Source: Klebsiella pneumoniae
GTDB taxonomy: Bacteria > Pseudomonadota > Gammaproteobacteria > Burkholderiales > UBA3065
DNA: 47,756 nucleotides
Direction of reading: 5' to 3'
NCBI GenBank assembly: GCA_945897555.1
Contig: CAMDGF010000011.1
Location: forward strand, 1-47,756
This document shows, piece by piece, positions 6,858 to 46,418 of this stretch (positions are counted from its first letter, which is position 1; the number at the start of each line of letters is the position of its first letter). Both the position numbers and the translations under genes were made by a program. The notes under the pieces were generated by a model. It made no database searches. It saw only the letters and a list, made by a program, of their open reading frames with translations, and was not told where the DNA came from.

Positions 6858-8747
<1,890 letters not shown>

Positions 8748-10013: not shown

Positions 10014-10028
10014 AGCGCCGCCAGCGGC

Positions 10029-10538: not shown

Positions 10539-10559
10539 GGGTTCGACGGGGCCTCGGGC

Positions 10560-11354: not shown

Positions 11355-11383
11355 GCGCTGCTCGGAATGGCTGGGGCTGCAGC

Positions 11384-11389
11384 TATACT
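11384..11389 (+). promoter_or_regulatory. Candidate -10 element for the TerC-like gene
   Basis: TATACT lies 30 bases before the chosen TTG start of the TerC-like gene and just inside the divergent thyA upstream region. No good -35 is seen. It mainly argues against the upstream in-frame ATG at 11353 as the real start. Confidence 0.35.
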
Positions 11390-11418
11390 CGCGGATCCCT
11401 TTCTCCCGGTGGCGCCCC

Positions 11419-12608: not shown

Positions 12609-12642
12609 GTGGGCTCGGCGCGGACGCTGCCTGCGCGAAGCC

Positions 12643-15510: not shown

Positions 15511-15602
15511 CGGTTCTCCTGTTTTGATGGCCGTGGTGCGGCCGTGAGGTTGATTCGGACAGGCGCAGCGACGATCGACGTTGCACCAAAAGGTCTGCTG
15601 CA

Positions 15603-16904
15603 CTACTGACTTATGGGGCCCCACGCGGGTTCACGCGCATCGCCAGACGACAGGCTGAGGCGCTGACGGACGCGCCCATCAACAGACGCCGCAGCAAGCT
15701 CGCCGCGGCCGCCCTGCATGCGGCTGAACAGCACCAACTGGCCGTTGGGGGCAAAACTCGGGCTCTCATCGACCGGCCCATCGGTGACCGGAAGCACCTG
15801 CCGGTTGGCGAGGTCCTGCGTGGCGATGCGGAAGCGCCCGGCGTGGCGCTGTACAAAGACGATCGACTTGCCATCGGGGCTCGGCCGCGCCGAGACGTTG
15901 TAGTCGCCCTCGAAGGTGAGGCGCTCGGCATTGCCGCCGGCCAGTGCGATGCGATAGACCTGCGGGCCACCCCCACGGTCGGAGGTGAAATACAGCGTGC
16001 GGCCGTCGGGGCTGAAGGCCGGCTCGGTGTCGTTGGCCGGTGTGGTCTTCATCAGGCGCTGCGGCTCGCCCCCCATGGCAGGCATGAGATAGATCTGCGA
16101 AGAACCGTCGCGGGTGAGCGCCACGGCGAGCCGCTGACCGTCAGGCGACCAGGCCGGCGCCGAATTGGAGCCTTTGACATCGCTGACGACGCGGCGCTCA
16201 CCCGTATTGAGCGTCTGCACCACCACCACCGGCTTCTTGCGCTCGAACGAGACGTAAGCGATGCGGTCGCCCTCGGGCGACCAGCGCGGCGAGATGATGG
16301 GCTCGCTGGAACTGAACACGGTGCGCGGGTTGTAACCGTCGGCGTCGGCCACCATGAGCTCGAAGCGCTTGCCCAGCCGCGTGATATAGGCGATGCGGGT
16401 ACTGAACACACCGGGCATGCCGGTGAGCCGCTCAAAGACAAGGTCGGCGATGCGGTGCGCGGTGGCGCGGATCTGGCGCGACTCGATGACGTAGCTCTGC
16501 CCGAACAGCTGACGGCCAGCGGCGAGATCGACCAAGCGCACCTGGACCTCCCACTTGCCACCGGCAGCCGGACTGACGCGCCCGATCAGCATGGCGTCGG
16601 CGCCCTGGCTGCGCCATTCCGCAACGTTGAGCTGCGCGAGCTCGGCCGGGCGAGGCATGACTGCGCTGGCATCGATGAGACGGAACAGGCCGCTGCGAGC
16701 AAGGTCGGCATTGACCACGGCACTGAGACTCTCGGGTAGCAGCGGCTCCGAAGCGAGCGGCGCGATGGCGACCGGGATCTGCTTGGCACCGGCTCCGACG
16801 ATCTCGATGCTGAGTGCCTCGGCACGAGCCATACCGGCCAGCATCACTCCGGAGCAGCAGAGGAGGCAGGCTAACAGCGCGAGGCGGCGCAAGGAGAGGA
16901 TCAT
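15603..16904 (-). CDS. tolB: Tol-Pal periplasmic beta-propeller protein TolB
   Basis: A 433-residue periplasmic protein. The signal peptide (1-28) ends MARA, an N-terminal D1 domain follows (IPVAIAPLASEPLLPESLSAVV), then a beta-propeller built from repeats such as PRWSPEGDRIAYVSFE, PAWSPDGQRLAVAL, PAFSPDGRTLYFTSD and ARPSPDGKSIVFVQ. It docks Pal and TolA. About 70 bases separate it from tolA. Confidence 0.97.
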   Translation of the reverse strand: MILSLRRLALLACLLCCSGVMLAGMARAEALSIEIVGAGAKQIPVAIAPLASEPLLPESLSAVVNADLARSGLFRLIDASAVMPRPAELAQLNVAEWRSQGADAMLIGRVSPAAGGKWEVQVRLVDLAAGRQLFGQSYVIESRQIRATAHRIADLVFERLTGMPGVFSTRIAYITRLGKRFELMVADADGYNPRTVFSSSEPIISPRWSPEGDRIAYVSFERKKPVVVVQTLNTGERRVVSDVKGSNSAPAWSPDGQRLAVALTRDGSSQIYLMPAMGGEPQRLMKTTPANDTEPAFSPDGRTLYFTSDRGGGPQVYRIALAGGNAERLTFEGDYNVSARPSPDGKSIVFVQRHAGRFRIATQDLANRQVLPVTDGPVDESPSFAPNGQLVLFSRMQGGRGELAAASVDGRVRQRLSLSSGDAREPAWGPISQ

Positions 16905-16974
16905 GGGCGTGAGAATAGCTGAAATCGTCGTCACGCCGGCTGTGTCAATGAGGCCGACCGGAGGTTCCCGTGCG

Positions 16975-17865
16975 CTAATCGCGCAGGCGGAACTGCAGGT
17001 CGAGCTCGCGATAAAACAGGCTGCGATCGGCTGGCAGCGGCAGCGGGCTGGCTGCCCGCACGGCGCGCTCTGCAGCCGCATCGAAGGCCGGGTCGCCACT
17101 CGACTTTGCCAGCCTGGCCGAGACCACTTCTCCGTTAGGTAACTGCAACACCTTGAGCTCGACCTGCGGGTTGCCCTGCACGCCCGGCGGCTCGACCAGA
17201 CGAGCCCGCACCGCACGCATGATCTGCGCGCGGTAGATGTCGAGCGCCGCTGCGCGCGCCTGTTGCGCCTGTTGCGCGGCTTGGGCATCGCGCCGACGCT
17301 GCTGCTCGGCCGCGGCGGCCTGTGCAGCCTCCTGCTCGCGCTGGCGCGCCTGTTCGGCCGCCTGCGCAGCGTTTCGTGCCGCCTCGGCCTCGCGGCGGAG
17401 CTCGTCGTCGCGACGTGCCGCCTCGGCCAGTTCGCGCTTGTGCCGCGACTCGACCTCGGCCAAACGCTCGGCCTCCTTTTGCTTTTTCTCCTTCTGGAGT
17501 GCGATGTCGGCCTTCGGCTCTGCAGCGGGCTTGGGCGGCCGCTCGGCGACCTTGGGCCGCGGTGGTTCGGGTGCGGGCTTCGGCTCTGGGGCAGGTGGCT
17601 CGGGTGGCGGTGGCTCGGGGGCTGGCTTGGGAGGCGGCGGCTCGGGCGGCTTCGGCTCAGGCGGGCGCTCGGGCACAGGCGGCGCTTGCGGCGGCGCCTT
17701 CGGCCCCGGCAGCGCATCCCAGACTTCCGCAACCACTGGCAAGGGCCGCGTCTGCCAATCCACGGCAAAAACCATGAGCGCGAGGAACAGCAGATGCACC
17801 GACACCGCCAGCACCCCGGCGAGCCCGGGGCGCTCGGCCTGAATGGATGCGGCGGAGGGTGACAT
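16975..17865 (-). CDS. tolA: Tol-Pal envelope-spanning protein TolA
   Basis: A 296-residue inner-membrane protein. One membrane helix (about 15-35) is followed by an unusually Pro-rich segment (about 48-112, PEPKPPEPPPPK-type), a charged Ala/Glu/Arg/Gln-rich helix (about 117-205, with EKKQKEAERLAEVESRHKRE), and a C-terminal TolA/TonB-like domain (YRAQIMRAVRARLVEPPG). It couples the TolQR motor to TolB-Pal. The start ATG 17865 lies 34 bases after tolR. Confidence 0.93.
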   Translation of the reverse strand: MSPSAASIQAERPGLAGVLAVSVHLLFLALMVFAVDWQTRPLPVVAEVWDALPGPKAPPQAPPVPERPPEPKPPEPPPPKPAPEPPPPEPPAPEPKPAPEPPRPKVAERPPKPAAEPKADIALQKEKKQKEAERLAEVESRHKRELAEAARRDDELRREAEAARNAAQAAEQARQREQEAAQAAAAEQQRRRDAQAAQQAQQARAAALDIYRAQIMRAVRARLVEPPGVQGNPQVELKVLQLPNGEVVSARLAKSSGDPAFDAAAERAVRAASPLPLPADRSLFYRELDLQFRLRD

Positions 17866-17899
17866 GGCGTTCAGGGGGCGGCGGCGTGAGCGGCCGGCA

Positions 17900-18340
17900 T
17901 CAGCGGCGCGGTGCGCTGGGCAGCGGCTGTGCCAACAGGCCGACACGGGCCACATCGGCCCGCTGCAGAAGATCCATGACGCGCAGCACCTTCTCGTAGC
18001 GCACCGACTTGTCAGCGGCGATGACGACCGGCTTCTGCGCATCCTTGGCCTGCGCGGCCTGCACCGCAGCCAACAGCGCGCCCTCGTTGCCGGAGACGAA
18101 CGTCTCGCCCACGGCAAGATCTCGCCACTGCAAGCGGCCCTCGGCATCCACGCGCACCTCGACCGGCTTGGCCGATGGCTGCGCACCCTTGCCCACCGAT
18201 GGCAGGGTGATCTCGACCGGCTGCACCAGCGGCGCGGTCACCATAAAGATGACCAGCAACACGAGCATGACGTCGATGTAGGGCACCACATTGATCTCGG
18301 CCTTGAGCCGGCGCTGACGACGTGCGCTCACGGCCGCCAC
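17900..18340 (-). CDS. tolR: Tol-Pal proton-channel subunit TolR (ExbD family)
   Basis: A 146-residue protein with one membrane helix carrying the proton-path Asp23 (VVPYIDVMLVLLVIFMV), the same position as in E. coli. The periplasmic part includes QPVEITLPSVGKGAQ and VVIAADKSVRYEKVLRVMDLLQ. The start is GTG at 18340, directly abutting the tolQ stop (TAG-GTG). Confidence 0.96.
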   Translation of the reverse strand: MAAVSARRQRRLKAEINVVPYIDVMLVLLVIFMVTAPLVQPVEITLPSVGKGAQPSAKPVEVRVDAEGRLQWRDLAVGETFVSGNEGALLAAVQAAQAKDAQKPVVIAADKSVRYEKVLRVMDLLQRADVARVGLLAQPLPSAPRR

Positions 18341-19024
18341 CTAGCGCACGCTGCGGGAGGACTGGCGCTGCAGGATGTTGGCGCACTCCTCCATGAAGCT
18401 CTCGAGCCGGATCGACAGGCGGTCGATGTCGTCGCTGAAGCGGTTGTAGGCGATCACCGCCGGAATGGCGGCAAAAAGGCCCATGGCAGTGGCCACCAGC
18501 GCCTCGGCGATGCCCGGCGCCACTTGCGCCAGCGTGGCCTGCGACACGTTGGCGAGCCCGCGGAACGAGTTCATGATGCCCCACACCGTGCCGAACAGGC
18601 CGATGTAGGGCGACACCGAACCCACCGAGGCGATGAAGGACAGATGCGATTCGAGCGCGTCCATCTCGCGGCGGTAGGTGGCCTGCATGGCGCGACGCGT
18701 GCTGGCGGATATCGACACCGGGTCGATGCCGCTCTGTTTGTGCAGCTTGACGAACTCCTCATAGCCCGCGCGGAAGACCCGCCCCATGGCGCCGCCGTCG
18801 GAACCGGCAAGGCCCTGATAGAGCATCTGCAGGTCGCCCCCTTTCCAGAACCGCTGCTCGAAAGCCTCGGCCAGACGACGCTGCTCGGCGATGGCAAAAC
18901 GCTTGCGGAAGATGTACCACCAGGACAGCCCCGACGCGACGAGCAGGATGAGCATGACCAGCTGGACCAGCAAGCTGGCGTCAGCGATCAGAGTGAGGAG
19001 AGAAAGGTCGGCACTGGCGTTCAT
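18341..19024 (-). CDS. tolQ: Tol-Pal proton-channel subunit TolQ (ExbB family)
   Basis: A 227-residue three-helix inner-membrane protein: helix 1 at about 16-36 (VMLILLVASGLSWWYIFRKR), then the conserved LSFIASVGSVSPYIGLFGTVWG region and GIAEALVATAMGLFAAIPAVIAYN. It forms the proton-driven motor with TolR. ATG at 19024 follows AGGA by about six bases; an in-frame ATG at 19057 is less likely. Confidence 0.97.
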   Translation of the reverse strand: MNASADLSLLTLIADASLLVQLVMLILLVASGLSWWYIFRKRFAIAEQRRLAEAFEQRFWKGGDLQMLYQGLAGSDGGAMGRVFRAGYEEFVKLHKQSGIDPVSISASTRRAMQATYRREMDALESHLSFIASVGSVSPYIGLFGTVWGIMNSFRGLANVSQATLAQVAPGIAEALVATAMGLFAAIPAVIAYNRFSDDIDRLSIRLESFMEECANILQRQSSRSVR

Positions 19025-19067
19025 CGGGGTCCTGGAGGCGGATAAGGGATTCGGCAAAACCGGGCAA

Positions 19068-19484
19068 CTACTCCACGCTGCTGACGACAGTCTGCAGCAC
19101 CTGCATCAGCGGGTCGGGCATGCGGGTCGGCCGCATGGACTCAGCGCCGACACAGATGACCTCGCTGCTGCCGCTGACCAGCGTCTCGCCATCGCGCACG
19201 ATCGACTGCTCGAAGTGGAGCGCGACGCGGCTGAGCACAGCGAGCCGTGATTGTACGGTGAGCGCGTCGTCGAGCCGCGCAGGACGGCGATAGGTGGCCT
19301 CTACCCCGCGCACCACAAAGAGGACACCCTGCCGCTCGCGCAGTTCGCTCTGGTCGAAGCCGAGCTGACGCAGCCACTCGGTGCGCGCGCGCTCCATGAA
19401 GCGCAGATAGTTGGCGAAATAGACCACGCCGCCAGCGTCGGTGTCCTCGTAGTAGACGCGAACCGGGAAGTCGAAGCCGGTCAC
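19068..19484 (-). CDS. ybgC: Tol-Pal-associated acyl-CoA thioesterase YbgC
   Basis: A 138-residue hot-dog thioesterase. The active-site stretch is VYYEDTDAGGVVYFANYLRFMERARTEWLR. The start is GTG at 19484, overlapping the mutY stop (GTGA). YbgC hydrolyses acyl-CoA and is the conserved first gene of Tol-Pal operons. It lies 43 bases ahead of tolQ. Confidence 0.95.
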   Translation of the reverse strand: MTGFDFPVRVYYEDTDAGGVVYFANYLRFMERARTEWLRQLGFDQSELRERQGVLFVVRGVEATYRRPARLDDALTVQSRLAVLSRVALHFEQSIVRDGETLVSGSSEVICVGAESMRPTRMPDPLMQVLQTVVSSVE

Positions 19485-20506
19485 GACGCGGCGCTCTCGC
19501 CGGGGGTGGCAGACACCTCGCCGTAAGCCATCTGCAAGGCCTGCCGCACCGGCTGTGGCAGGCCGAGCGCCCACACCTCGTCCCAGGCGAAGTGCCTGGC
19601 CGCGCTAAGGGCGCTGGCTTCGTCGCCAGCACGGCCGATGACGATCTCCAGACGCAGGTGGGTGAGGTCGTGGCGCAGGGTGTGCCACAGGCGACTGCCG
19701 CGCCCCTCGGGCAGGCACCACAGCCCGCCCCAGACGCCACGCTCGGGGCGGCGGACCAGCGTGACCCCGCCCGCGGAGCAGTCGAGCAGCAATTCGACCC
19801 GACGCTGCACCCGCTCGCGCGCCGGCCGCGGGGCCGGGATGTGACGGGCACGGCCGCTCAACCGCGCCTGGCAATCCACCGCCACCGGACAACGCGTGCA
19901 GTCTGGCCGGTTACGGTGACAGACTGTGGCACCGAGATCCATCATCGACTGGGTGTAGGTCGCCGCGGTGCCGGTCGGTGCGTCGAGTGCGGGGAGCCGC
20001 GACTCCGCCTCGGCCCAGAGCCGCTTGAGGATCTGCGACTCGCCGGGCCAACCTTCGATGCCAGCGTGGCGCGCCAGTACACGGCGCACGTTGCCGTCGA
20101 GGATGGCCGCCGGGCGGTCGAAGGCGAGTGAGACGATGGCCGCCGCCGTGGAGCGCCCCACGCCAGGCAAGCGCATCAGGCCCTCGATGTCGGTCGGGAA
20201 GGCACCGCTCGCAGCCACCTCGCAGGCGGCGCGATGCAGATTGCGCGCACGGCTGTAATAGCCGAGGCCCGACCACAGGCCAAGCACCTCGTCGAGCGGT
20301 GCTGCAGCGAGTGCCTGCACGTCGGGAAGGCGTGCGACGAAGCGCCGGTAGGCGGGCAACACAGTGGCGACCTGAGTCTGCTGGAGCATGACCTCGGAGA
20401 CCCAGACACGGTAGGGGTCGCCGGTGGCCTGCCAGGGCAAGCCGTGGCGGCCGAAGTGCCTCTGCCATTCGGTCATCCGTGACGCAAAGTCCTGCGTATT
20501 GGGCAC
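19481..20506 (-). CDS. mutY: Adenine DNA glycosylase MutY
   Basis: A 341-residue base-excision enzyme removing A opposite 8-oxoG. The catalytic Glu is at residue 38 (SEVMLQQTQV), the helix-hairpin-helix is LPGVGRSTAAAIVSLAF with LDGNVRRVLAR supplying the Asp, the [4Fe-4S] cysteines have the pattern C-x6-C-x2-C-x5-C (CHRNRPDCTRCPVAVDC), and a Nudix-like C-terminal domain follows. I prefer GTG 20506 because the N-terminus then matches the E. coli length; ATG 20476 is the alternative. MutM, its partner against 8-oxoG, is at 27.3 kb. Confidence 0.95.
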   Translation of the reverse strand: MPNTQDFASRMTEWQRHFGRHGLPWQATGDPYRVWVSEVMLQQTQVATVLPAYRRFVARLPDVQALAAAPLDEVLGLWSGLGYYSRARNLHRAACEVAASGAFPTDIEGLMRLPGVGRSTAAAIVSLAFDRPAAILDGNVRRVLARHAGIEGWPGESQILKRLWAEAESRLPALDAPTGTAATYTQSMMDLGATVCHRNRPDCTRCPVAVDCQARLSGRARHIPAPRPARERVQRRVELLLDCSAGGVTLVRRPERGVWGGLWCLPEGRGSRLWHTLRHDLTHLRLEIVIGRAGDEASALSAARHFAWDEVWALGLPQPVRQALQMAYGEVSATPGESAAS

Positions 20507-20548
20507 TTTTGGTTTGCCGATGCTGGGAGTTATGGTAATTTTGCCTCA

Positions 20549-21859
20549 ATGACCGACATCCGCGCCCGTCTCTCTGCCCGCAGGCGCCACCAGTTGTGGC
20601 GTGGGGGCATCGGTACCTTGCTGGCAGCCACCGGTTGCCTTGTGGTGTTGACGGCGTTCGGCGTGGCCCCACCCAGCAGCCTGGAACTTCAGGCGCTCCG
20701 CGCGATCGATGCGCCCGAGGGGCTGGCGCTCGAGAGCGTCGGGGGCGACGACAACCACACCTTCCGCTATTCACCCGTCGTCCGTCGCGGCGACACCATG
20801 GGTGATGTGCTGCTGCGGGCTGGCGTGTCCTCGGGCGACATCGCTCGCCTGATGGCCGATCCGAGCGCGCGGCGTGTGCTCGGTGGCGTCAAGCCGGGCC
20901 AGTCGATCGAGGTCGGCATCGACGGCGACGGCGGTCTCGCGCGGTTGGCTTTTGGCGGCGCGGATGGCCACCGCATCGAGATCAGCGCAGCAGCAGAAGG
21001 CTTTGTGGTGCGGACCACCCAAGCAGCCCTGCAGACCCTCCCGCGCTTCGTCAGTGGCGAGATCCGCACCTCCCTGTTCGCTGCCACCGACGAGGCCGGC
21101 ATTCCCGACAACGTGGCGGTGCAGATCGCCGAGATCTTCTCCGGAGTCATCGACTTTCACCGCGGCCTGCGCAAAGGCGACCGCTTCTGGGTGGTCTACG
21201 AGCAGACCCTGCGCGACGGTGAGTCGGCTGGCAGCAGCCGGGTGATCTCTGCCGAGTTCAGCAATGGTGGCACCACCCACAGTGCCTACTGGTTCGAGCC
21301 GCGCGGCCAGCGTGGCGCCTACTATACAGCCGAAGGCAAGAGCCTGCGGCGGCAGTTCCTCTTGTCGCCCCTCGAATTCTCGCGTGTGACCTCCGGATTC
21401 TCGTCTGCACGCTTCCACCCCGTGCTGCAGGAATGGCGCGCGCACCGGGGGGTCGACTACGGCGCACCGGCTGGCACGAGAGTACGTGCCACCGCCGACG
21501 GCGTGATCGAGACCGCCAGCTACTCGGGGGGATACGGCAATCTGGTGGTGATCGCGCACGGCGGCAGTTACAGCACGGCCTACGGCCATCTCTCGAGTTT
21601 TGGCCCCGGCATCCGCAAGGGCGCGCGCGTGGGCCAGGGTGACACCATCGGCTATGTTGGCGCCACTGGCATGGCCACCGGCCCGCACCTGCACTACGAG
21701 TTCCGCGTCAAGGGCGCGCAGATCGATCCGCAGGGTGTACGCATGGCGACATCCTTGGCCCTGAGCGGTGAGTCACGCCGGCTCTTTGAAAAGCAGCGTG
21801 ACCTCGCCCAGCAGCAGATCGGCTTCGCCAAGCAGACGGTCGCCGCCCGTTTCGAGTGA
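20549..21859 (+). CDS. M23-family (LytM) peptidoglycan endopeptidase, membrane-anchored
   Basis: A 436-residue envelope protein. A single N-terminal membrane segment (about 18-38) is followed by an OapA/LysM-like region (VVRRGDTMGDVLLRAGVSSGDI), a middle domain, and the C-terminal metallopeptidase with zinc ligands H299 and D303 (HRGVDYGAPAGT) and H380/H382 (GPHLHYEF). The full metal-binding set suggests an active D,D-endopeptidase like MepM rather than an inactive activator. Transcribed with anmK, another murein-metabolism gene. Confidence 0.92.
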   Translation: MTDIRARLSARRRHQLWRGGIGTLLAATGCLVVLTAFGVAPPSSLELQALRAIDAPEGLALESVGGDDNHTFRYSPVVRRGDTMGDVLLRAGVSSGDIARLMADPSARRVLGGVKPGQSIEVGIDGDGGLARLAFGGADGHRIEISAAAEGFVVRTTQAALQTLPRFVSGEIRTSLFAATDEAGIPDNVAVQIAEIFSGVIDFHRGLRKGDRFWVVYEQTLRDGESAGSSRVISAEFSNGGTTHSAYWFEPRGQRGAYYTAEGKSLRRQFLLSPLEFSRVTSGFSSARFHPVLQEWRAHRGVDYGAPAGTRVRATADGVIETASYSGGYGNLVVIAHGGSYSTAYGHLSSFGPGIRKGARVGQGDTIGYVGATGMATGPHLHYEFRVKGAQIDPQGVRMATSLALSGESRRLFEKQRDLAQQQIGFAKQTVAARFE

Positions 21860-35900: not shown

Positions 35901-36707
35901 ATGAAGACCGACTCGACGCCACGCAAAGATCCGCTGACTGCCGAGACATCGCAGCGCGCCGATCGGCCGTCGATGCCCCGCCCCTTCCAGCCCTCTGCAT
36001 CGCCTAGCCAACTCGTGCAGGCGGTGTGCCGCAGCCGCATGGTGCAGGGCGGTGATGCGTGGGTCGAATTGTTGTCGCAAGCGCGACGCGAGAACCGCAA
36101 GCGCAACATCACCGGCGTGCTGGTACGACAAGGCGACGCCGTATTGCTGGTGTTGGAGGGAACGGCCGAGCGGGTCGGCGAGGTGCTCACTGCGATCGGC
36201 CGCGACCCACGCCATGTCGGGCTCTCGGTGCTGCGCGTGCGTTCGGCACTCAAACGCGATTTCCCCGGCTGGTGGATGGCGAGCACCCAACTCGATATCG
36301 ATCGCTTCATCCGCATCGAGCGGGCCTTCGCCAGCGACGACCCCGACGCCGGAAGGCGGCTGCGAGCCTTCATCGTCGATGGCGAGTGGATGCCGGAACC
36401 GACCCTGGGGGGCGCCGCACTGCTCACGCCGATGTCACGCCGCACCAATCATGTCGGCCTTGCCGCGCATGCGAATGGTGGCGAGACGGCAGCCAGCGCA
36501 GTGCGAGCCGTGCGCGTTCGCAGCGGCCTGACGCAGACGGAGTTCGCCCGACGCTTCGGCGTGCCACTGCACACCTTGCGCAACTGGGAACAGGGCAAGC
36601 GTGCGCCGACGGGAGCAGCGGCCACCCTCATCCGTATCATGACTGTGATGCCGGAGGTGGTCAGCGCGATCGCAGCCACGGCGCCACCGCTCATGCGTCC
36701 GAACTGA
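35901..36707 (+). CDS. Degenerate BLUF-like domain fused to a C-terminal XRE-type HTH
   Basis: A 268-residue protein. Residues about 38-135 align by eye with BLUF flavin photoreceptors of the AppA type: conserved N65, NITGVL (69-74), VLEG (84-87), RDPRH (101-105) and FPGWWM (121-126). The two residues that make BLUF photochemistry work are replaced: the flavin-site Tyr is Cys43 (AVCRS where BLUF has YRS) and the Gln is Leu83 (VLLVLEG where BLUF has FFQWLEG). Residues about 200-260 form an antitoxin/XRE helix-turn-helix (RSGLTQTEFARRFGVPLHTLRNWEQGKRAP). It is probably a transcription regulator that no longer senses blue light in the normal way, or that senses something else. ATG 35901 is used; ATG 35973 is also in frame. 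It may matter that tRNA-Leu follows. Confidence 0.8.
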   Translation: MKTDSTPRKDPLTAETSQRADRPSMPRPFQPSASPSQLVQAVCRSRMVQGGDAWVELLSQARRENRKRNITGVLVRQGDAVLLVLEGTAERVGEVLTAIGRDPRHVGLSVLRVRSALKRDFPGWWMASTQLDIDRFIRIERAFASDDPDAGRRLRAFIVDGEWMPEPTLGGAALLTPMSRRTNHVGLAAHANGGETAASAVRAVRVRSGLTQTEFARRFGVPLHTLRNWEQGKRAPTGAAATLIRIMTVMPEVVSAIAATAPPLMRPN

Positions 36708-37391: not shown

Positions 37392-38363
37392 ATGCACGAC
37401 GCCGAGCGCATCCATCGCATCGACCAACTCCTGCACGAGCGGCAGGTGGTGCCGCTGAGCGAGATGCTCAAGGCACTCGGCGTTTCGCGAGCCACCTTCA
37501 AGCGCGATCTGGCTTATCTGCGCGACCGCTTCAATGCGCCCATCGAGTACGACCGCGAACGTGGTGGGTACCGTTTTGCCGAACAGGGCCCCGGGCCGCG
37601 CTACGCCCTGCCGGGCCTTTGGTTCAGCGAGGCCGAGGTCGCTGCCCTCTTGACCATGAGCCAGCTGCTCGAGGAACTCGACAGCAACCTGCTGACCCCG
37701 CACATCCGGCCGCTGATGGCCCGCATCGACGCCATTCTCGGCGACGGCAAGGTGGGATCTGCGGAATTGCGGCGGCGCATCCGCATCACCCGTGCCGGCA
37801 CGCGCCCGCCGGCCAACCAGTGGTTCCCCGGCATCGGCCTTGCACTGCTGCGCCGCAAGCGCCTGTACATCCGTTACTACGGACGCGCCAGAGACGATGT
37901 GACCGACCGCGCGGTGTCACCGCAGCGCCTCGTGCATTACCGCGGCAACTGGTATCTCGATGCCTGGTGCCACCTGCGAGACGGCTTACGGAGTTTCGCG
38001 CTCGATGGCTTCCGTAGCATGCAGACCCTCGAGCAGCCCGCCACAGAGTGCACCGACGCTGAACTCGACGCGTTCTTCAGCGCCGGCTACGGCATCTTCT
38101 CGGGTGCCGATGTGCGCTGGGCCCGGCTGCGCTTCAGCGCCGAGCGCTCACGTTGGGTAGCGGCCGAGCATTGGCACTCACAACAGCGGGGTGACTTTGA
38201 TGAGATGGGACGCTATGTGCTCGAAGTGCCCTATTCCGATCCACGCGAGTTACTCGGTGAGGTGTTGCGGCACGGCAGCAGCGTGGAGGTGCTGGATCCA
38301 CCGGAGATACGCGAGATGTTGCGCGCCGAACTGCGAGCTGCACTGACGCTCAGCGGCGGCTGA
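37392..38363 (+). CDS. WYL-domain transcriptional regulator (YafY type)
   Basis: A 323-residue regulator. An N-terminal winged HTH (MHDAERIHRIDQLLHERQVVPLSEMLKALGVSRATFKRDLAYLRD, about 1-50) is followed by a WYL domain (LYIRYYGRARDDVTDRAVSPQRLVHYRGNWYLDAWCHLRD, about 155-200) and a C-terminal WCX-type extension. WYL regulators sense ligands, often nucleic-acid-derived. Its 3' end overlaps the convergent MalY-like gene by 14 bases. A DNA palindrome lies upstream. Target genes are unknown; the ovothiol genes are the nearest candidates. Confidence 0.92.
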   Translation: MHDAERIHRIDQLLHERQVVPLSEMLKALGVSRATFKRDLAYLRDRFNAPIEYDRERGGYRFAEQGPGPRYALPGLWFSEAEVAALLTMSQLLEELDSNLLTPHIRPLMARIDAILGDGKVGSAELRRRIRITRAGTRPPANQWFPGIGLALLRRKRLYIRYYGRARDDVTDRAVSPQRLVHYRGNWYLDAWCHLRDGLRSFALDGFRSMQTLEQPATECTDAELDAFFSAGYGIFSGADVRWARLRFSAERSRWVAAEHWHSQQRGDFDEMGRYVLEVPYSDPRELLGEVLRHGSSVEVLDPPEIREMLRAELRAALTLSGG

Positions 38364-39552
38364 AGGCAGCCACACGACGCAGGCAGTCGGCCATGCGTGA
38401 GGGCGGAATGGCAAAGTTGAGCCGCATGAAGCCGCTGCCGCCGACGCCAAAGCGTGCACCCGCCGAGAGTCCGAGCCCAGCCTCGACCCAAGCGCGCATG
38501 AGGCGGGTATCGTCCATGCCGGTGCCACGGCAATCCAGCCACGCCAGATAGGTGGCCTCCGGCGGCGTGCCCTTGACCCATCCGTCGACAGCCGGAGTGA
38601 GCGCCTCGAACAGCGCGTCGCGGTTGGCGCGCAACACATCGAGGCAGGCATCGAGCCAGGTGTCGCCCTCTCGGTAAGCGGCCTCAAAGGCCACCAAGCC
38701 GAGCGGGTTGGCAACGCTCACGGGCAGTCGGCCGAACGCCTCGGCCAGACGACTGGCCACAGCGTCGCTGGACGAGATGACCGCCGAAAGGCCCAAACCA
38801 GGGATGTTGAAGGTCTTGCTTGGAGCCACGGCCGTGGCCACTGCATCCTCGGCGGTAGCGATCCGGCCGAGGGGGATGTGTAGCGGCGCATCGGCCGCTG
38901 CGCCGTGGCGCGGGGCGTAGACCAGGTCGGCATGGATCTCGTCGCTGAGGATGGCCATGCCGTGCCGCCGCGCGATGTCGAGCACCGCGCGCAACTCGTC
39001 CTCGCGCCAGACCCGCCCGACCGGGTTGTGCGGACTGCAGAGCAGCAACAGGCGTGCGCCCCCGCGCGCGAGCCCCTCGAGCCGGTCGAGGTCCATAGAG
39101 TAGCCAGCGCCAGACTCCCGCCCGCTGCCCTGCAAGAGCGGGTTCTCGAGCACGACGCGGCCCTGCCGGGTGACGGCGTCGAACAGCGGCGGGTAGACCG
39201 GTGGCTGTACCACCACGCCCTGCCCCGGTTCGGTGAAGGCAGCCACCGCCGCGTAGAGCGTGGGCACCACGCCGGGCGCGAGCGCGACGCGGTGGCCATC
39301 CACCTGCCAGCCATGCCGGCGCGCAAGCCAGCCGCTGAGCGCCTCCGGCACAGCGTCCGGGACCACGGTATAGCCATAGACCGGATGCGCCACGCGTGCC
39401 GCGAGGGCGGCCTGGACCGCCGGCGGCGCGGCGAAGTCCATGTCGGCCACCCAGAGCGGCTCGACCGCATCGGTGCCGAACAGACGCCGGCGCAGGTCGT
39501 ACTTCTCGCTGTGCGTACCCACGCGCTCCACCGGCTTGTCGAAGTCGAACAC
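38350..39552 (-). CDS. ovoB: MalY/PatB-type PLP C-S lyase, likely OvoB
   Basis: About 400 residues of a fold-type I PLP enzyme. It opens FDFDKPVERVGTHSEKYDL like MalY, has the PLP-binding Lys in APSKTFNIPGLGLSAV, and contains SPHNPVGRVW and SDEIHADLVY. Alone it would be called a cystathionine beta-lyase. Directly downstream of ovoA it fits OvoB, which cleaves the sulfoxide conjugate to 5-thiohistidine. I use GTG 39552 because homology to MalY begins there; GTG 39597 is also in frame. The 3' end overlaps the WYL gene. Confidence 0.85.
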   Translation of the reverse strand: MFDFDKPVERVGTHSEKYDLRRRLFGTDAVEPLWVADMDFAAPPAVQAALAARVAHPVYGYTVVPDAVPEALSGWLARRHGWQVDGHRVALAPGVVPTLYAAVAAFTEPGQGVVVQPPVYPPLFDAVTRQGRVVLENPLLQGSGRESGAGYSMDLDRLEGLARGGARLLLLCSPHNPVGRVWREDELRAVLDIARRHGMAILSDEIHADLVYAPRHGAAADAPLHIPLGRIATAEDAVATAVAPSKTFNIPGLGLSAVISSSDAVASRLAEAFGRLPVSVANPLGLVAFEAAYREGDTWLDACLDVLRANRDALFEALTPAVDGWVKGTPPEATYLAWLDCRGTGMDDTRLMRAWVEAGLGLSAGARFGVGGSGFMRLNFAIPPSRMADCLRRVAAFSRR

Positions 39553-39613
39553 CGGCGAAGCGCCCCGAAGCCGGCTCAATGGCGCGCGGGGCTGCACCGA
39601 GGCGGTGCGAGAC

Positions 39614-41755
39614 TCAGGCCACCCTTTCCCACACTGTGACCTCGGCCAAGGTGTGCTGATGCTTGCGGCGCGTCTCGCGGATCACAAAAGCGACGTCGCG
39701 GGGCTCGCCGAGCATGCGGAAGTGCGGCGCCAGCGCGGCCTTGAGGGCATCGAGCGTGGTCCAGCTCTCGCCGTCCTTCTTGAAGCCGCCGAGCCAGTTC
39801 TCTTTGGATGTGTGGTCCTCGAGCCAGGTGTAGGGCGAGCTGAGCATGAGCACCCCGCCGACATTGAGCCGCTCGTGGATGCGGCCAAGGAAGGCCATCG
39901 GATCGTAGAGCCGATCGATGAGGTTGGCGGCGAGAATGAGGTCGTAGCCAGTGAGCACAGTCTTGAGGTTGCAGGCATCACCCTGCAGGAAATCGACCTT
40001 GCCGGCCACCTCCACCAGCCCTAGAGCGGCCAGCGTGCGCGTCTGGTAACTCACCAGATCACCCTCTTCGACGCGCTGATAACGCAGCTCGCCGGTATCA
40101 CGCAGCTGCACACCGGCGTTGATGAAGCGCGCCGAGAAGTCGACGCCGGTGACATGCCCGAAATGCTTGGCCAGCTCGAAGGTGGCGCGGCCGGTGGCGC
40201 AGCCCAGATCGAGCGCAGTCCGCGCCGGGCGGTCGCCGATGGCCGCGATGGCGATCTGCGCCAGCGCGCGCGGGAAGTTGGGCACGCCGAAGCACTCGTC
40301 GCCGAAGTGGAACTCCACATATTCGGCGAGCTGGCGATCGGATTCGTAATAGACGTTAGGCGCCACGGCAGGCGTATCGGTGACCACGTAGCGCAACCCC
40401 GCATGTTGGAAGAAATGACGGCGAAAAGCATAGCGCGAGGCGCGGATGCTCTCGTTGCCGCAAGAGGCCCACGAACCACCCTTCATGAGGTTGTGGCGGC
40501 CGTCGAAGGTGGGCGTGGAGAAATCATCGTAGATGTCGTGGACGCGGAAGCCCTCGAACGGGTAGATGGGCGTCTCGGTCCACTGCCATACATTGCCGAC
40601 CACATCAAAGAAGTCGCCCTGCGCGTGACGATCGACCGGGCAGCTCGAGGCCCCGTGGTCGAGGTGCAGGTTGGCGGCGGCCGGACGATCGTGCGGCACC
40701 TCGGCGATGCCGGCGACGTCGTACAAGCGATACCACTCGTCTTCGGTGGGCAGACGGTGGTTGCGGCCGGTGGTAGCGGTCATCCAGCGGCAGAAAGCGC
40801 GGGCCTCGAGGCAATTGACCTCGACCGGCCAGTTCCAAGGCATCGGCACCACCTCGGTCATCAGGCGCAGCTTCCAGGTGACACCCTCGCGCACCCAGAA
40901 GGTCGGCGCCTGCGCCAGCGAGTAGCGGCGCCAGCCCTCGCCCTCCTCGTCCCACCACTGCGGGTCGGCATAGCCACCCGCCTCGACGAAGGCCAGGTAT
41001 TCAGCGTTGCTGACCAGCATGCGGCCCGCCTCGAAAGCGGGGAGCTCGACCTTGCGCTCGCCGTACTCGTTGTCCCAGCCGTAGATCGGGTCGTCGAGGG
41101 CCTTGCCCATGCGTACCGTGCCGGCAGGCACTGGCACCAGCGCGTTGGCCGGGGCGTCGAAGGGCGTCGGGGCAGCGGCCAGCCCGCTGCGATCGGGCGA
41201 CCATGCCGCGAGCGGCCGCACGCGCCCGAGCGCGTGCTGACGGATGAGCACCGACGACGTCTCGAGGTGGATGCGCTCGTGCTCGACGCCCATGATGACG
41301 GCCCACCATGGGTTGTCCCAGTCGACCGGCAGCTGCAGCGGCGCCTCGCGGATGACACGATCGACCATGGCACGGACCTTGTCGCGATAGGCACGCACCG
41401 CGGCGGCGGTGGGCCAATCGTAATGCGCCTCGTTGAGGTCGTCCCAGCTCATCTCATCGACCCCCACCGCGAACATCGACTCGAAGCGCGGGTCGATGCG
41501 TTCGCTGATGAGCCCAGCCAGAACGAACTTGTTGGTGAAAAAGGTGGCGGTGTGCCCGTAATAAAAGATCAGCGGGTGGCGCAGGCTGATGGGCTTGGTG
41601 CGAAAGCTGTCCTCGTCCACCAGTGCCTCGAACAGCGACTCATAGGTGCTGAACGTGCTGTGGAAGTACTCACCCAGTGTCCGCCGGAAGGCGATCGGGT
41701 CGGTGGTGCGCAGGTCGGGGGTCCGCGGAAAGAGAAGTCGGGAGTCGTTGCGCAT
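39614..41755 (-). CDS. ovoA: 5-histidylcysteine sulfoxide synthase / mercaptohistidine methyltransferase OvoA
   Basis: A 713-residue three-domain enzyme. The N-terminal DinB-like domain (about 1-185) carries the non-heme iron site H159-x3-H163-x-E165 (VEHERIHLET), with H68 near (YYGHTATFF). A formylglycine-generating-enzyme-type sulfatase-modifying domain follows (about 205-455, MKGGSWASCGNESIRASRYAFRRHF in fragments), then a SAM methyltransferase (about 465-713) with ALDLGCATGRATFELA near residue 515. OvoA joins cysteine to histidine C5 with oxygen, and its methyltransferase domain can N-methylate the thiohistidine to ovothiol A. The paired lyase gene lies 61 bases downstream. Full length with no truncation. 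Confidence 0.95.
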   Translation of the reverse strand: MRNDSRLLFPRTPDLRTTDPIAFRRTLGEYFHSTFSTYESLFEALVDEDSFRTKPISLRHPLIFYYGHTATFFTNKFVLAGLISERIDPRFESMFAVGVDEMSWDDLNEAHYDWPTAAAVRAYRDKVRAMVDRVIREAPLQLPVDWDNPWWAVIMGVEHERIHLETSSVLIRQHALGRVRPLAAWSPDRSGLAAAPTPFDAPANALVPVPAGTVRMGKALDDPIYGWDNEYGERKVELPAFEAGRMLVSNAEYLAFVEAGGYADPQWWDEEGEGWRRYSLAQAPTFWVREGVTWKLRLMTEVVPMPWNWPVEVNCLEARAFCRWMTATTGRNHRLPTEDEWYRLYDVAGIAEVPHDRPAAANLHLDHGASSCPVDRHAQGDFFDVVGNVWQWTETPIYPFEGFRVHDIYDDFSTPTFDGRHNLMKGGSWASCGNESIRASRYAFRRHFFQHAGLRYVVTDTPAVAPNVYYESDRQLAEYVEFHFGDECFGVPNFPRALAQIAIAAIGDRPARTALDLGCATGRATFELAKHFGHVTGVDFSARFINAGVQLRDTGELRYQRVEEGDLVSYQTRTLAALGLVEVAGKVDFLQGDACNLKTVLTGYDLILAANLIDRLYDPMAFLGRIHERLNVGGVLMLSSPYTWLEDHTSKENWLGGFKKDGESWTTLDALKAALAPHFRMLGEPRDVAFVIRETRRKHQHTLAEVTVWERVA

Positions 41756-41994: not shown

Positions 41995-42381
41995 ATGTAC
42001 GTGATCGACCGCAATCTGGCCGTGATCAAGCCCAAGCAGCCCTTCCTCGATTGGCTGTGCAAGACGCCGGGCAACGAGGTCGACCTCACGCTCGATCAGT
42101 TGCGCATCGACTGCACTGCACTGCTCATCCCCGAGTTCGAAGAGCCTGAGGACGCGGTGAGCTTCATCGACGAGATCGCCGTCGAGCTGTTCGAGGCAGA
42201 GCTCGGCAGTTGGGTCGACGATGCCTCGCACTGGCCCAAGGATCGCTCGCTGGCCGCTTTCTGGTCGTGGTTTGATGTCGAGATCCACGGCACGGTGGTG
42301 GATCTGGTCGACGAAGAGGTTCCAGCCGAGCCCGAACCGCCGCGGCGCGGCGGCAAGAGTGGCAAGGCGGGTGCGCGCTAG
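41995..42381 (+). CDS. Conserved hypothetical acidic protein
   Basis: A 128-residue soluble protein beginning MYVIDRNLAVIKPKQPFLDW, with an aromatic motif ending WPKDRSLAAFWSWFDVEIH and a basic tail (PRRGGKSGKAGAR). I recall similar unknown proteins in betaproteobacteria but no function. ATG 41995 has GGAG seven bases upstream; a longer in-frame start at 41836 lacks any conserved feature. Its stop is nested with the convergent carrier-protein stop in a shared CTAG. The 239-base gap before it, divergent from ovoA, shows no clear promoter. Confidence 0.85.
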   Translation: MYVIDRNLAVIKPKQPFLDWLCKTPGNEVDLTLDQLRIDCTALLIPEFEEPEDAVSFIDEIAVELFEAELGSWVDDASHWPKDRSLAAFWSWFDVEIHGTVVDLVDEEVPAEPEPPRRGGKSGKAGAR

Positions 42382-42635
42382 GCCGAAGCGCGGGCGCTGA
42401 CGAACGCGGTCAGGGCCCCGAGGGTGCTGAACATGCGGCCATCGATCTCGTCGTCTGCGATGCTCACGTCGAAACGGTGGCGGATGGCCTCGAGCACCGA
42501 CAACACCGCCATGGAATCCAGCTCCGGAATGGCCCCCATGAGTCGCGAATCGGCGCACAACATGGCGCCGCGACCGTTGAGGACGAGGACGTCGTCGAGG
42601 ATGCGTGCCAACTCGGTCTGCATGTCTACTGCCAT
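42378..42635 (-). CDS. Acyl carrier protein (phosphopantetheine-binding)
   Basis: An 85-residue ACP. The phosphopantetheine attachment Ser41 is in PELDSMAVLSVLEAI, followed by DDEIDGRMFSTLGAL. It is divergent from the acyl-CoA ligase gene, and such ACPs accompany exosortase-A-type ligases. The start ATG 42635 is clear. Its substrate is probably an acyl or aminoacyl group loaded by the ligase. Confidence 0.92.
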   Translation of the reverse strand: MAVDMQTELARILDDVLVLNGRGAMLCADSRLMGAIPELDSMAVLSVLEAIRHRFDVSIADDEIDGRMFSTLGALTAFVSARASA

Positions 42636-42848
42636 GGTCTTGTCGTGTCCCGGCCCTGGTGAGGGCGCGTGTGAGGCCGGACGATGCCAGCGGGGCTCAG
42701 CGCCGCGGGGGCCGTCGCACCACCGTGTCCGGGGGCGCCATTATAGGAAGTCCGCGCCGCCGTGGACACCGACGACATCAAGCCAGTGCAAAAGCGAGTG
42801 CCGTCGTGGTGCCGGCGCAACAACTCGCCACCGGCGGCCGGTCCGCGC

Positions 42849-44525
42849 ATGACGATGCGGACGATCATCACCACCGACGATCTGCTGCGGGCCTCCGCAC
42901 GAAAAGCACCCGAGGCCATCGCCCTCTGGCGGGAGGGTATCGCACTGAGCTACGCCGAACTTGACGCGCGCGTCGATCGGGCGGCCGGCTGGTTGCGGCG
43001 GAACTTGCCACTGCGCGGCGCACGCGTCGCCATATGGCTCGACAAGCGGGTGGACACCGTGGTGGCGATGTTCGCCGCGATGCGTGCCGGGCACGTGGCG
43101 GTGCCGCTCAACCCGGCGCTCCGCGCCGCACAGGTGCAAGCCTGTCTGGCCGACTGCGGTGCCGCCGCCTTGTTCAGCGATGGCGCTCGCCTCTCTGCCT
43201 GGGCCAGCACCCCCGCCATGAGCACCAACCACAGCCCCGGGGTGCTGGTCGATGTCGACGCGCCCGATTGCTGCACCCGCGCCCCGAACCCTGACAACCC
43301 GTCCACCCCCCTTTTGCAAGCCGGCTTTGCCGAGCGCGATGGCGAGGAGCTGGCGATCCTGTTCTACACCTCGGGCAGCAGCGGTGCGGCCAAAGGTGTC
43401 ATGGTGACGCATGCCAACCTGCTGGCGGGCGCCGATGCAGTGAACCGCTATCTCGACCACACCGCCGACGACCGGCTCCTCGCCGCCCTACCGCTGTCCT
43501 TTGACGCGGGCTTCTCGCAACTCACCAGCGCGTTCGCCGTGGGCGCTGCGGTGGTGCTGCTCGACCACCTGTTCCCGGCCGACGTGCTCAGCGCACTCGA
43601 ACGCGACCGGGTGACCGGCATCACCGGGGTGCCGCCACTCTATCTGCAGCTGGCGGCCGCTCTGCCAAGACACTCGGGCCCGCGGGACGCTGCTCGCATC
43701 ACGGCGACGGCCACCGTGCCGCGCGGCAGCAGCCTGCGCTACTTTGCCAATACCGGAGGCCACTTGCCACAGCCCACCTGGCTGGCGCTACGCCAGCACT
43801 GGCCACAGGCAGAGCCGATCGCCATGTATGGGCTGACCGAGGCGTTCCGCGCGAGCCGCTTGCCAGCAGAGGATTTTGCCCGCAAGCCTGACTCCATCGG
43901 CCTGCCCATCCCGGGCGGCACCCGGCTGCATGTGATGCGCGCCGATGGCTCGCCTTGCGCGGCTGGCGAACCCGGCCAACTTGTGCAGCAGGGGCCTCTG
44001 GTGACGCGCGGCTACTGGAACGATCCGGCACGCAGCCTCGAGCGCTTCCGACCCGGACCCGATGGTGAGCCGGCGGTCTGGTCGGGCGACACCGTGTGGC
44101 GCGATGACGAGGGCTATCTCTACTTTGTCGGGCGCGACGACGAGCAGATCAAGACCTCGGGCTACCGCGTAAGCCCCAGTGAGGTGGAGGCGGTGGCTGC
44201 GGCGGCCGGCTGGCCAGAGTGCGTCGCAATGGGCGTGCCCGATGCCACCCTCGGACACGCGATCGTGCTGGTGGTGGCCGGCAGCGCCGCGGCGGTGCCA
44301 GATGCCCACGCCATGGCCACCGACCGTGACAGCGCGCACGAAGGACTGCTGCCGGCACTGCGGGCCGCGCTTCCGGCGTGGATGGTGCCGCGCCGCATCG
44401 AGGTATGGGATGGCTCGCTGCCACGCAACGCGAATGGTAAGTTCGACCGCGTGCTGATCCGCCAGAGGACCCTGCAGCGCGCCGCGCATCCACAGCCCGA
44501 CCATAACGGCGACGGCGATGACTGA
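42849..44525 (+). CDS. Acyl-CoA ligase (AMP-forming), exosortase-A-associated type
   Basis: About 558 residues of an ANL-superfamily adenylating enzyme. Core motifs are FYTSGSSGAAKGVMVTHAN (P-loop A3), MYGLTEAFRASRLP (A5), VGRDDEQIKTSGYRVSPSEVE (A8 hinge) and the catalytic Lys in RNANGKFDR near the C-terminus. It resembles the exosortase-A-system ligase subfamily. ATG 42849 is used; GTG 42762 is in frame and follows AGGA at a long distance. It overlaps the decarboxylase by eight bases, so the two are coupled. Confidence 0.85.
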   Translation: MTMRTIITTDDLLRASARKAPEAIALWREGIALSYAELDARVDRAAGWLRRNLPLRGARVAIWLDKRVDTVVAMFAAMRAGHVAVPLNPALRAAQVQACLADCGAAALFSDGARLSAWASTPAMSTNHSPGVLVDVDAPDCCTRAPNPDNPSTPLLQAGFAERDGEELAILFYTSGSSGAAKGVMVTHANLLAGADAVNRYLDHTADDRLLAALPLSFDAGFSQLTSAFAVGAAVVLLDHLFPADVLSALERDRVTGITGVPPLYLQLAAALPRHSGPRDAARITATATVPRGSSLRYFANTGGHLPQPTWLALRQHWPQAEPIAMYGLTEAFRASRLPAEDFARKPDSIGLPIPGGTRLHVMRADGSPCAAGEPGQLVQQGPLVTRGYWNDPARSLERFRPGPDGEPAVWSGDTVWRDDEGYLYFVGRDDEQIKTSGYRVSPSEVEAVAAAAGWPECVAMGVPDATLGHAIVLVVAGSAAAVPDAHAMATDRDSAHEGLLPALRAALPAWMVPRRIEVWDGSLPRNANGKFDRVLIRQRTLQRAAHPQPDHNGDGDD

Positions 44526-45792
44526 TCGCGCGCGCGCTGGCCTGGCCGCCACGCAGGCCGCCCCGCACACGGCACCCGCTCACGCGCCGCCGCTGTTCAC
44601 GGTGGATCCGCAGGGCGCGCTGATGCTGGGCGCCGAGCCTGCCATTGCACTGGCCGAGCGCATCAGCACACCGCTCTACGCTCTCGACGGGCGGCTGGTG
44701 CGGGAGCGTGTGGCTGAGGTCCGCGACCTACTGCCGGCTGGCGTGCGTCTGCACTACGCCATCAAGGCCAACCCGATGCCAGACCTGCTGCGCCTGCTCG
44801 CGCCGCTCGTCGACGGCTTCGACGTCGCCTCGGCTGGCGAGCTGCAGCTGGCGCTGGATGCCGGCCACCGCGGCGCCGACCTGGGCTTCGCCGGGCCTGG
44901 CAAGCGCGACGACGAGTTGCGCGCCGCGATGGGTGCGGGCGCCGTCGTCAACGTCGAGTCAGCAGGCGAACTGGCGCGACTGGCGGCACTGGCCCGCGCC
45001 AGAGGGCGACGCAGCTTGGCGGCATTGCGCATCAACCCGGACTTCGAGCTGCGCCAGTCGGGCATGCGCATGGGCGGCGGCGCGCAGGTGTTCGGCATCG
45101 ACGCCGAGCAGGTGCCGGGGGTCCTCGCCGCGTGGCCGGCTGATGTCGACTTTGCCGGCTTCCACATCTACGCCGGCTCGCAGAATCTCAACGGCGAGCA
45201 GGTGGCAGACGCCCTGCGGCGCAGCCACGCCCTTTGCGCGCGACTGGCCGGCGGCGCGCCTGCCACGCCGCGCATCTTCAACCTCGGCGGCGGGCTGGGC
45301 ATCCCTTACTTTGCTGGCGAGCAGCGCATCGACACCGCGCCGATCGCCAGCGCGATGGCGAGCATCGCTGCCGCGCATCGCCATGCCTTCCCGGACACCA
45401 CGCTGGTGCTGGAGATGGGCCGTTACCTGGTCGGCGAGGCCGGCGTGTTCCTCACCCGCGTGCTCGACCGCAAGCGTTCACGTGGCCGCGAGTTTCTGGT
45501 GTGCGACGGCGGCATGCACCAGCACCTGGCGGCGTCGGGCAATCTCGGCCAAGTGATCCGCCGCGACTACCCGGTCTGGCTGGCACGCGATCTGCGGGCC
45601 CGACCCGACTCGGCCTTTACCGTCTGCGGGCCGCTGTGCACGCCGCTGGACGTCCTGGCGCGCGAGGCGCTGCTGCCGGGCGACGTGCAGCCGGGCGACG
45701 TGCTGGCCATCGGCCAGTCGGGCGCCTACGGTGCGAGCGCCAGCCCGGCGGGATTCCTGTCGCACCCTGCCGCTGGTGAGATGCTGGTCTAG
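44518..45792 (+). CDS. PLP-dependent decarboxylase, exosortase-A-associated type
   Basis: A 424-residue alanine-racemase-fold (LysA-like) decarboxylase. PLP-binding Lys83 is in LHYAIKANPMPDLLRLL, the phosphate-binding Gly loop is NLGGGLGIPYF, EMGRYLVGEAGVF follows, and the C-terminal active-site Cys is in VCGPLCTPLDVL. Subfamily members sit in exosortase A clusters. The substrate could be an amino acid tethered to the ACP; this is inferred. The stop is nested with the convergent regulator stop (CTAG). Confidence 0.87.
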   Translation: MTDRARAGLAATQAAPHTAPAHAPPLFTVDPQGALMLGAEPAIALAERISTPLYALDGRLVRERVAEVRDLLPAGVRLHYAIKANPMPDLLRLLAPLVDGFDVASAGELQLALDAGHRGADLGFAGPGKRDDELRAAMGAGAVVNVESAGELARLAALARARGRRSLAALRINPDFELRQSGMRMGGGAQVFGIDAEQVPGVLAAWPADVDFAGFHIYAGSQNLNGEQVADALRRSHALCARLAGGAPATPRIFNLGGGLGIPYFAGEQRIDTAPIASAMASIAAAHRHAFPDTTLVLEMGRYLVGEAGVFLTRVLDRKRSRGREFLVCDGGMHQHLAASGNLGQVIRRDYPVWLARDLRARPDSAFTVCGPLCTPLDVLAREALLPGDVQPGDVLAIGQSGAYGASASPAGFLSHPAAGEMLV

Positions 45793-46418
45793 GCCAGTCG
45801 GCGCTCGATGACGTAGCGGGTCAGGTCGGCGTTGGACGCTAGGCCGAGTTTCTGCAGGACGCGGCTGCGGTAGGTGCTGACCGTCTTGGTGCTCAGGTTG
45901 AGTTCGGTAGCGATGCGCTTGAGCGGCCTGCCGGCGCCGAGCATCAGCAACACGCCCATCTCGCGGCGCGACAGCGCCAGGTGCGGCACCACCGCCCGTT
46001 CCGCCCCATTCCCTGCCATCAGGGTGCGCGCGGCGCGCGGCGCCAGGTAAGTGTCGCCGCCCAACACCGTGCGCGCAGCCAGCAGGATCTGTTCGGGCTG
46101 GCTGCGCTTGTGCAGGTAGCCGGCTGCGCCCATGCCAATCAGCGGCAGGGTGAAGTCTTCCTCGTTGTTGATGCCGAACACCAGCACACGAGATGCCGGC
46201 GCGTTGCGCCGAAGGTGCCCCAGCATCTCAACCAGCGGCAACTCCGGCATTGCGGGGTCAAGCATCAGCAGATCGCAGGGCACCCGTCCCAACAGCTGCA
46301 GAACCTCTGACGAGTGCCCGACCTCGGCGACCACGCAGAAGTCGCGCGTGACGCCAAAAACGTGGCGCAAGCCGATGCGCACCACCGGGTACTGGTCAGC
46401 GATAACGATATCCGCCAT
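45789..46418 (-). CDS. NarL/FixJ-family response regulator
   Basis: A 209-residue two-domain regulator. The receiver has the phospho-acceptor D54 (LLMLDPAMPEL) and the conserved Lys (YLHKRS), but the usual second acidic residue is Q9 (IADQYPVV) and the switch Thr position looks like Gly (VFGINNEE). The LuxR-type HTH is at the C-terminus (LSRREMGVLLMLGAGRPLKRIATELNLSTKTVSTYRSRV). No histidine kinase is in the window. Divergent from the surface-protein gene, with a palindrome between them. Confidence 0.92.
   Translation of the reverse strand: MADIVIADQYPVVRIGLRHVFGVTRDFCVVAEVGHSSEVLQLLGRVPCDLLMLDPAMPELPLVEMLGHLRRNAPASRVLVFGINNEEDFTLPLIGMGAAGYLHKRSQPEQILLAARTVLGGDTYLAPRAARTLMAGNGAERAVVPHLALSRREMGVLLMLGAGRPLKRIATELNLSTKTVSTYRSRVLQKLGLASNADLTRYVIERRLA

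Follow-up and report, generated by a model that had tools for sequence, protein, structure and literature searches.

Trios of a ligase, an acyl carrier protein (ACP) and a pyridoxal phosphate (PLP)-dependent decarboxylase have been described in the butirosin (BtrI/BtrJ/BtrK), vicenistatin (VinN/VinL/VinO) and bolagladin (BolO/BolC/BolN) pathways. The butirosin ligase, BtrJ, is an ATP-grasp enzyme, unlike the AMP-forming ligase described here. BtrK converts glutamyl-S-BtrI to 4-aminobutyryl (GABA)-S-BtrI by decarboxylation, according to the relevant passages of PMC7857480. In vicenistatin biosynthesis the stand-alone AMP-forming ligase VinN activates the side-chain carboxyl of (methyl)aspartate, and VinO decarboxylates only after the thioester has formed (PMC11284099, in its part on this step). 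For bolagladin of Burkholderia gladioli, the relevant part of the publication proposes a trio of the same kind, in which aspartate is loaded on a free ACP and a BtrK-like decarboxylase yields a beta-alanyl product that feeds a non-ribosomal peptide synthetase (NRPS). The same or neighbouring ligase and decarboxylase families, in the same order, occur in exosortase-A systems, and NCBIfam labels them (TIGR03098 and TIGR03099) only as "exosortase A system-associated", hypothetical equivalogs. Here we analyzed contig CAMDGF010000011.1 of assembly GCA_945897555.1 (47756 bp in its entirety, hereafter the window), in which an earlier note had placed a carrier protein, a ligase and a decarboxylase of exosortase-A type at 42378-45792, where all three genes are indeed found (Table 1). 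What is new in this locus is a divergent branch of a familiar kind of system, one free of the exosortase, together with a testable specificity switch.

Among open-licence papers in PubMed Central (PMC), we found no published function for the exosortase-associated ligase, decarboxylase and ACP trio, and no papers on the numbers TIGR03098 or TIGR03099. The pertinent parts of PMC2907700, PMC8776678, PMC11631085 and PMC9850573 give no function for the trio, and a term search of the main text of Haft et al. 2006 (PMC1569441) found neither a ligase nor a decarboxylase.

On its homologies, the trio is probably a cassette that makes an omega-aminoacyl-ACP. The substrate of the ligase would be an acidic alpha-amino acid, L-glutamate most likely in this case and L-aspartate in the other of two pocket classes; the enzyme would adenylate its side-chain carboxyl and load the activated amino acid on the phosphopantetheine arm of the ACP. 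With the amino acid thus bound, its free alpha-carboxyl would be removed by the BtrK-like enzyme, giving 4-aminobutyryl-ACP (GABA-ACP) or beta-alanyl-ACP, and some acyltransferase would hand the omega-aminoacyl group from the ACP to an acceptor. The earlier note had pictured a self-contained route, which stands, fed separately by acid activation and by amino-acid decarboxylation, which calls for refinement, since homology to both BtrK and VinN argues for one continuous route, with loading of the amino acid as the first step and its decarboxylation following on the carrier. In this genus the product is possibly GABA-ACP.

The decarboxylase exceeds the TIGR03099 cut-off (500.2 bits against 478.45). 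Its top match in the Protein Data Bank (PDB) is BtrK at 245 bits, where SbnH reaches 142 and the best diaminopimelate (DAP) decarboxylase 133; a profile search gave 370 for BtrK, against 250 for SbnH and 248 for the best DAP decarboxylase, and a fold comparison also placed BtrK first (Z 41.4, root-mean-square deviation (rmsd) 2.0 over 359 residues, 36% identity). The protein has K83 in an AIKANP motif, and its C374-T375-P376 is present in all 26 aligned decarboxylases and in BtrK, whereas the DAP decarboxylase 2p3e has CET, the Glu of which binds the distal amino group of DAP. Identity with an ordinary LysA was rejected, as the TIGR01048 score (229.1 bits) lies below the cut-off of 297.9, and the host genome carries a separate LysA (locus L116, 444.4 bits with the same model), the gene of which is cut by a contig end. 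The decarboxylase is classed as BtrK-like, BtrK being its closest solved homologue by sequence, and it is predicted to act on a carrier-bound amino acid.

The ligase, whose best family is TIGR03098, is of the amino-acid-activating type, with an FD motif followed by YGLTE-A-F-R. Its best single-domain PDB match is VinN (164 bits); LgrA reached 195 bits in three pieces, the best piece giving 101, and the other listed matches did not exceed 144. A family-profile search gave 294 for VinN and 234 for the best LgrA domain, with 8xjz at 351 in two pieces and no single-piece figures. VinN was also the top match for the pocket segment of a relative of the other pocket class (L034), and with that relative as the aligned query the YGxTE-x-x-R spacing, with Arg on a short loop, is the same as in VinN. 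The account of the VinN pocket in PMC7756342 proposes Asp230 as the residue that binds the amino group and assigns the alpha-carboxyl to Ser299 and Arg331; the bulky F231 is described as important for (methyl)aspartate in the corresponding part of PMC11253843. Counting residues from base 42840, the pocket of the window ligase consists of D222, A223, T262, A303, T305 and F336-R337, in which D222 corresponds to Asp230 and R337 to Arg331 on the shortened loop, whereas Ser299 is replaced by Thr305, a conservative change. No polyketide synthase (PKS) was recognised beside the trio, a further difference from vicenistatin. A fatty-acid ligase was rejected as a candidate, given the NRPS-type FD motif and given that TIGR03098 and the amino-acid adenylation model outscored every fatty-acid model among the 25 families listed.

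The ACP is a marginal match to PF00550 (21.2 bits against a cut-off of 20.8), with 2lki as its best PDB match (61.7 bits), and its orthologues in three other genomes of the genus are 87-91% identical. For a wider comparison we assembled 86 loci, comprising the window, five relatives and 80 further loci; these 80 are the best of at least 571, so the set favours close relatives. An ACP match was obtained at 42 of these 86 loci, always with D-S at the serine motif, and at 25 of the 42 the ACP gene lies divergently just upstream of the ligase. Ligase and decarboxylase genes are adjacent and on the same strand in 78 of 82 loci.

The earlier note had seen no exosortase in the window and had suggested searching the genome for the exosortase and for PEP-CTERM proteins. 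We ran these searches on the assembled contigs of five genomes of the genus (G000, the window genome, and G001-G004; 79-98.5% complete), and neither the exosortase (PF09721) nor PEP-CTERM (PF07589) was matched in any of them, while the same searches gave positives elsewhere, PEP-CTERM in four of five comparison genomes. A complete exosortase cluster just outside the window, named in the earlier note as a refuting case, thus finds no support, PF09721 being without a match in the contigs of the 98.5%-complete host genome. The glycosyltransferase family PF02397 was likewise absent from all five and present in both of its comparison genomes. As the NRPS condensation domain (PF00668) was also matched in none of the five, use of the trio by an NRPS within the genus, the bolagladin arrangement, was rejected.

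In a sample of 300 genomes of the order (E-values up to 1e-100 for TIGR03099 and up to 1e-10 for the exosortase), TIGR03099 was found in 56, the exosortase in 110 and both in 50. The six TIGR03099 genomes without exosortase comprise G292 and the five members of the genus, so that outside the genus the coupling holds in 50 of 51; when the best match of each of the 56 positive genomes is taken, the genus has the lowest decarboxylase scores (492-510 bits). A second exosortase-free case is G292, which belongs to another family and has a genome of 1.3 Mb. Its pair (L115, 9604-12422) passes both TIGR cut-offs, belongs to the Y-class defined below by its SFDYG and TNS motifs, had no ACP match within the 20 kb read, and is surrounded by FtsK-, trp- and glycolate-oxidase-like genes, as named by eye. 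Another set comprised 49 genomes of unstated completeness drawn from the list of 80 loci, and in 42 of these the exosortase scored above the cut-off; the genomes of L037, L044, L064, L080 and L098 had no match, and those of the two Herbidospora loci (L092, L102) had matches below the cut-off only.

Within the genus, ligase and decarboxylase are present in all five genomes and the ACP in four, the contig of G001 ending inside the ligase. The other four decarboxylases are 66-88% identical to that of the window, and their frames contain no stops. Between the window and the other genus members, the ratio of nonsynonymous to synonymous substitution rates (dN/dS) was about 0.22-0.27 in the decarboxylase gene, 0.09-0.15 in that of the ACP and 0.28-0.31 in that of the ligase, some of the relatives' ligase frames carrying N-terminal extensions; the value for the neighbouring gene for OvoA was about 0.11-0.13. 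The trio genes are under purifying selection.

Variation at the ligase pocket was analyzed in the 79 of 86 loci whose ligase could be aligned over 300 residues, the other seven being dropped. Asp222 and Phe336-Arg337 are invariant, and positions 223, 262, 303 and 305 switch almost jointly, defining two classes. The Y-class (49 ligases) has Y223, A262 and T303, with S305 in 47; the A-class (29 ligases, those of the genus included) has A223 and T305, with T262 in 27 and A303 in 28; one outlier reads F/S/S. The Y-class agrees with VinN at three of the four positions (an aromatic residue at 223, T303 and S305), VinN having Pro at 262. Positions 223 and 305 match VinN residues described as pocket-lining, and 262 and 303 are known by position only. 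With the four columns left out, the ligase tree requires six class changes; the decarboxylase tree requires eight, and in each case four are forced by starred branches; an independent-pairs test of joint switching had only four pairs (p 0.125-0.5). Repeated concerted change at pocket sites suggests a specificity switch, and exchange of whole ligase genes could also contribute to the pattern. In the quick decarboxylase tree the genus groups with Thioalkalivibrio (Y-class) and a sphingomonad metagenome-assembled genome (98), whereas in the quick ligase tree, which carries long-branch warnings, it groups with one further A-class row (97), with Herbidospora nearest by path. The two trees thus disagree on the neighbours of the genus, and ligase exchange is possible. 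Loss of the aromatic residue would enlarge the pocket, with a best fit to one extra carbon, so that A-class ligases possibly take glutamate and would hence lead to GABA-ACP.

Several observations weigh against an omega-aminoacyl-ACP cassette of this kind. The ligase scores 531.1 bits, below the TIGR03098 cut-off of 592.35, as do the ligases of all five genus genomes (that of G001 being a partial gene), so the family label denotes resemblance and not curated membership. Structure comparison fails to single out VinN as the nearest ligase (Z 45.0, rmsd 2.4 over 369, as compared to Z 46.9, rmsd 9.5 over 457, for feruloyl-CoA synthetase), and a DAP decarboxylase, at Z 40.6, ties with BtrK. The position of VinN F231 is occupied by Ala in the window and the genus, so the substrate is not simply that of VinN, and pocket size is the one argument that singles out glutamate. 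Decarboxylase sequences show no split along the ligase classes (lowest overlap 0.34), which neither supports nor excludes a substrate switch. Lastly, no acyltransferase or acceptor dedicated to the trio was recognised beside it. Each genus genome yielded a single PF13480 gene (frames of 403-486 aa) in a search for FemAB/GNAT acyltransferases, and G003 a weak second match as well; the gene of the window genome encodes a PF04339 protein, adjoins an NAD synthase-like gene (named by eye) and has no tie to the trio.

Other explanations differ in how much of the proposed cassette they keep. Compatible with it, and a serious possibility, is an A-class ligase that takes another acidic substrate, such as aspartate, a substituted aspartate or aminoadipate, so that the product is not GABA-ACP. 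A-class ligases keep the Asp and Arg residues and differ from VinN at positions 231 and 297, with Thr for Ser299, and an A-class pair beside a Herbidospora PKS (see below) would suit other starter units; yet the larger pocket would best accommodate a single extra carbon, and BtrK itself uses glutamate. It is unlikely that the trio serves a surface-polymer or sorting pathway escaping PF09721, PF07589 and PF02397, for example with the neighbouring DUF11-type protein. Trios of this kind do usually go with exosortase genomes, and a DUF11/DUF7507 protein adjoins the trio in G000 and G002-G004; in G001, however, an FtsK-like gene (named by eye) directly adjoins the decarboxylase, neither a DUF11 gene nor a regulator intervening, and the C-terminal ends of the DUF11-type open reading frames of L021 and L023 show no typical sorting signal by eye, although the L023 end may reflect a frameshift.

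A functionless relic of a lost exosortase-A cluster would agree with the missing exosortase, PEP-CTERM and PF02397 matches in the genus and with its low decarboxylase scores. Retention of ligase and decarboxylase in all five genomes, decarboxylase frames without stops and conserved catalytic residues make such a relic very improbable, and it was rejected on dN/dS values well below 1. Still harder to credit is a decarboxylase that acts as an additional LysA or forms a diamine from a free amino acid, with the ligase and ACP as unrelated neighbours. The shared DAP decarboxylase fold, with Z values within 1, would allow it; the TIGR01048 score, the separate LysA, the lead of more than 100 bits of BtrK over the best DAP decarboxylase and the adjacency of ligase and decarboxylase all argue against it.

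Loci outside the genus fit a portable omega-aminoacyl-ACP cassette. In Herbidospora sakaeratensis (L092, Actinomycetota, 6499-21176), an A-class ligase and a decarboxylase (TIGR03099, 569 bits) have a type I PKS and a stand-alone condensation protein as neighbours, possibly an omega-amino starter-unit cluster; enzymes of the VinN/VinO type supply starter units in settings of this kind. The H. yilanensis locus (L102) looks similar, with the decarboxylase, a partial ligase and a homologue of the L092 PKS. In Oceanospirillales Hp36 (L098, Y-class), whose genome gave neither exosortase nor PEP-CTERM matches, the trio is found among sugar-nucleotide and glycosyltransferase genes, as judged by eye. 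We tentatively suggest a portable cassette with a switchable pocket (aspartate to beta-alanyl in the Y-class, glutamate to GABA in the A-class) that would have been freed from the exosortase and would feed a new acceptor in this genus.

Table 1. Features of the trio and its surroundings in the window.
Feature	Position	Strand	Basis or remark
Acyl carrier protein (ACP), 85 aa	42378..42635	-	PF00550, Ser motif ELDSM
ACP/ligase divergent intergenic region	42636..42848	.	No sigma-70 consensus
AMP-forming aminoacyl-ACP ligase (predicted), TIGR03098-like, A-class pocket	42849..44525	+	Profile match, first in-frame ATG as start
PLP decarboxylase, alanine-racemase fold, TIGR03099, BtrK-like	44518..45792	+	Profile, PDB homology
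LuxR-type response regulator, convergent with decarboxylase	45789..46418	-	Domain match; neighbour, putative association only
OvoA, then PatB-type C-S lyase	38350-41755	-	Both OvoA domains above cut-off
DUF11/DUF7507 large repeat protein, start only, cut by contig end	46609-47756		Domain match
BLUF blue-light sensor domain protein	35901-36707		Domain match

The frames of ligase and decarboxylase share an 8-base overlap. The ligase reading frame begins at a GTG at 42762, and the first in-frame ATG, at 42849, is the likelier start. A scan of 42300-42900 found neither promoter nor terminator. The flanks of G003 and G004 are as in the window, with the DUF11-type protein, response regulator, trio, a small conserved protein, OvoA, PatB-type lyase and a WYL regulator; G002 agrees save for the small conserved protein, which was not picked up. 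OvoA and the PatB-type lyase, an apparent ovothiol biosynthesis pair, are kept beside the trio in G002-G004. Between the window and G003, the synonymous divergence (dS) of the response regulator is about 0.04, as compared to 0.35 for the decarboxylase and 0.49 for OvoA; recent replacement or recombination of the regulator gene is possible. The host genome is 1.81 Mb in size, and its 16S rRNA shares 91% identity with Methylobacillus sp. MM3, 89-90% with Paucimonas, Sapientia and Noviherbaspirillum, and 84% over 446 bases with Competibacter. This sequence places the host in a deep betaproteobacterial lineage.

A genus that keeps the cassette while lacking every usual partner that was searched for offers a clean background in which to find its product and acceptor, and the two-state pocket yields a prediction for other genomes carrying the ligase-decarboxylase pair. 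Because the families are linked to VinN and BtrK, the chemistry can be tested directly with three small proteins. If the proposal is true, the trio of exosortase clusters would add a primary amine to a polymer or protein.

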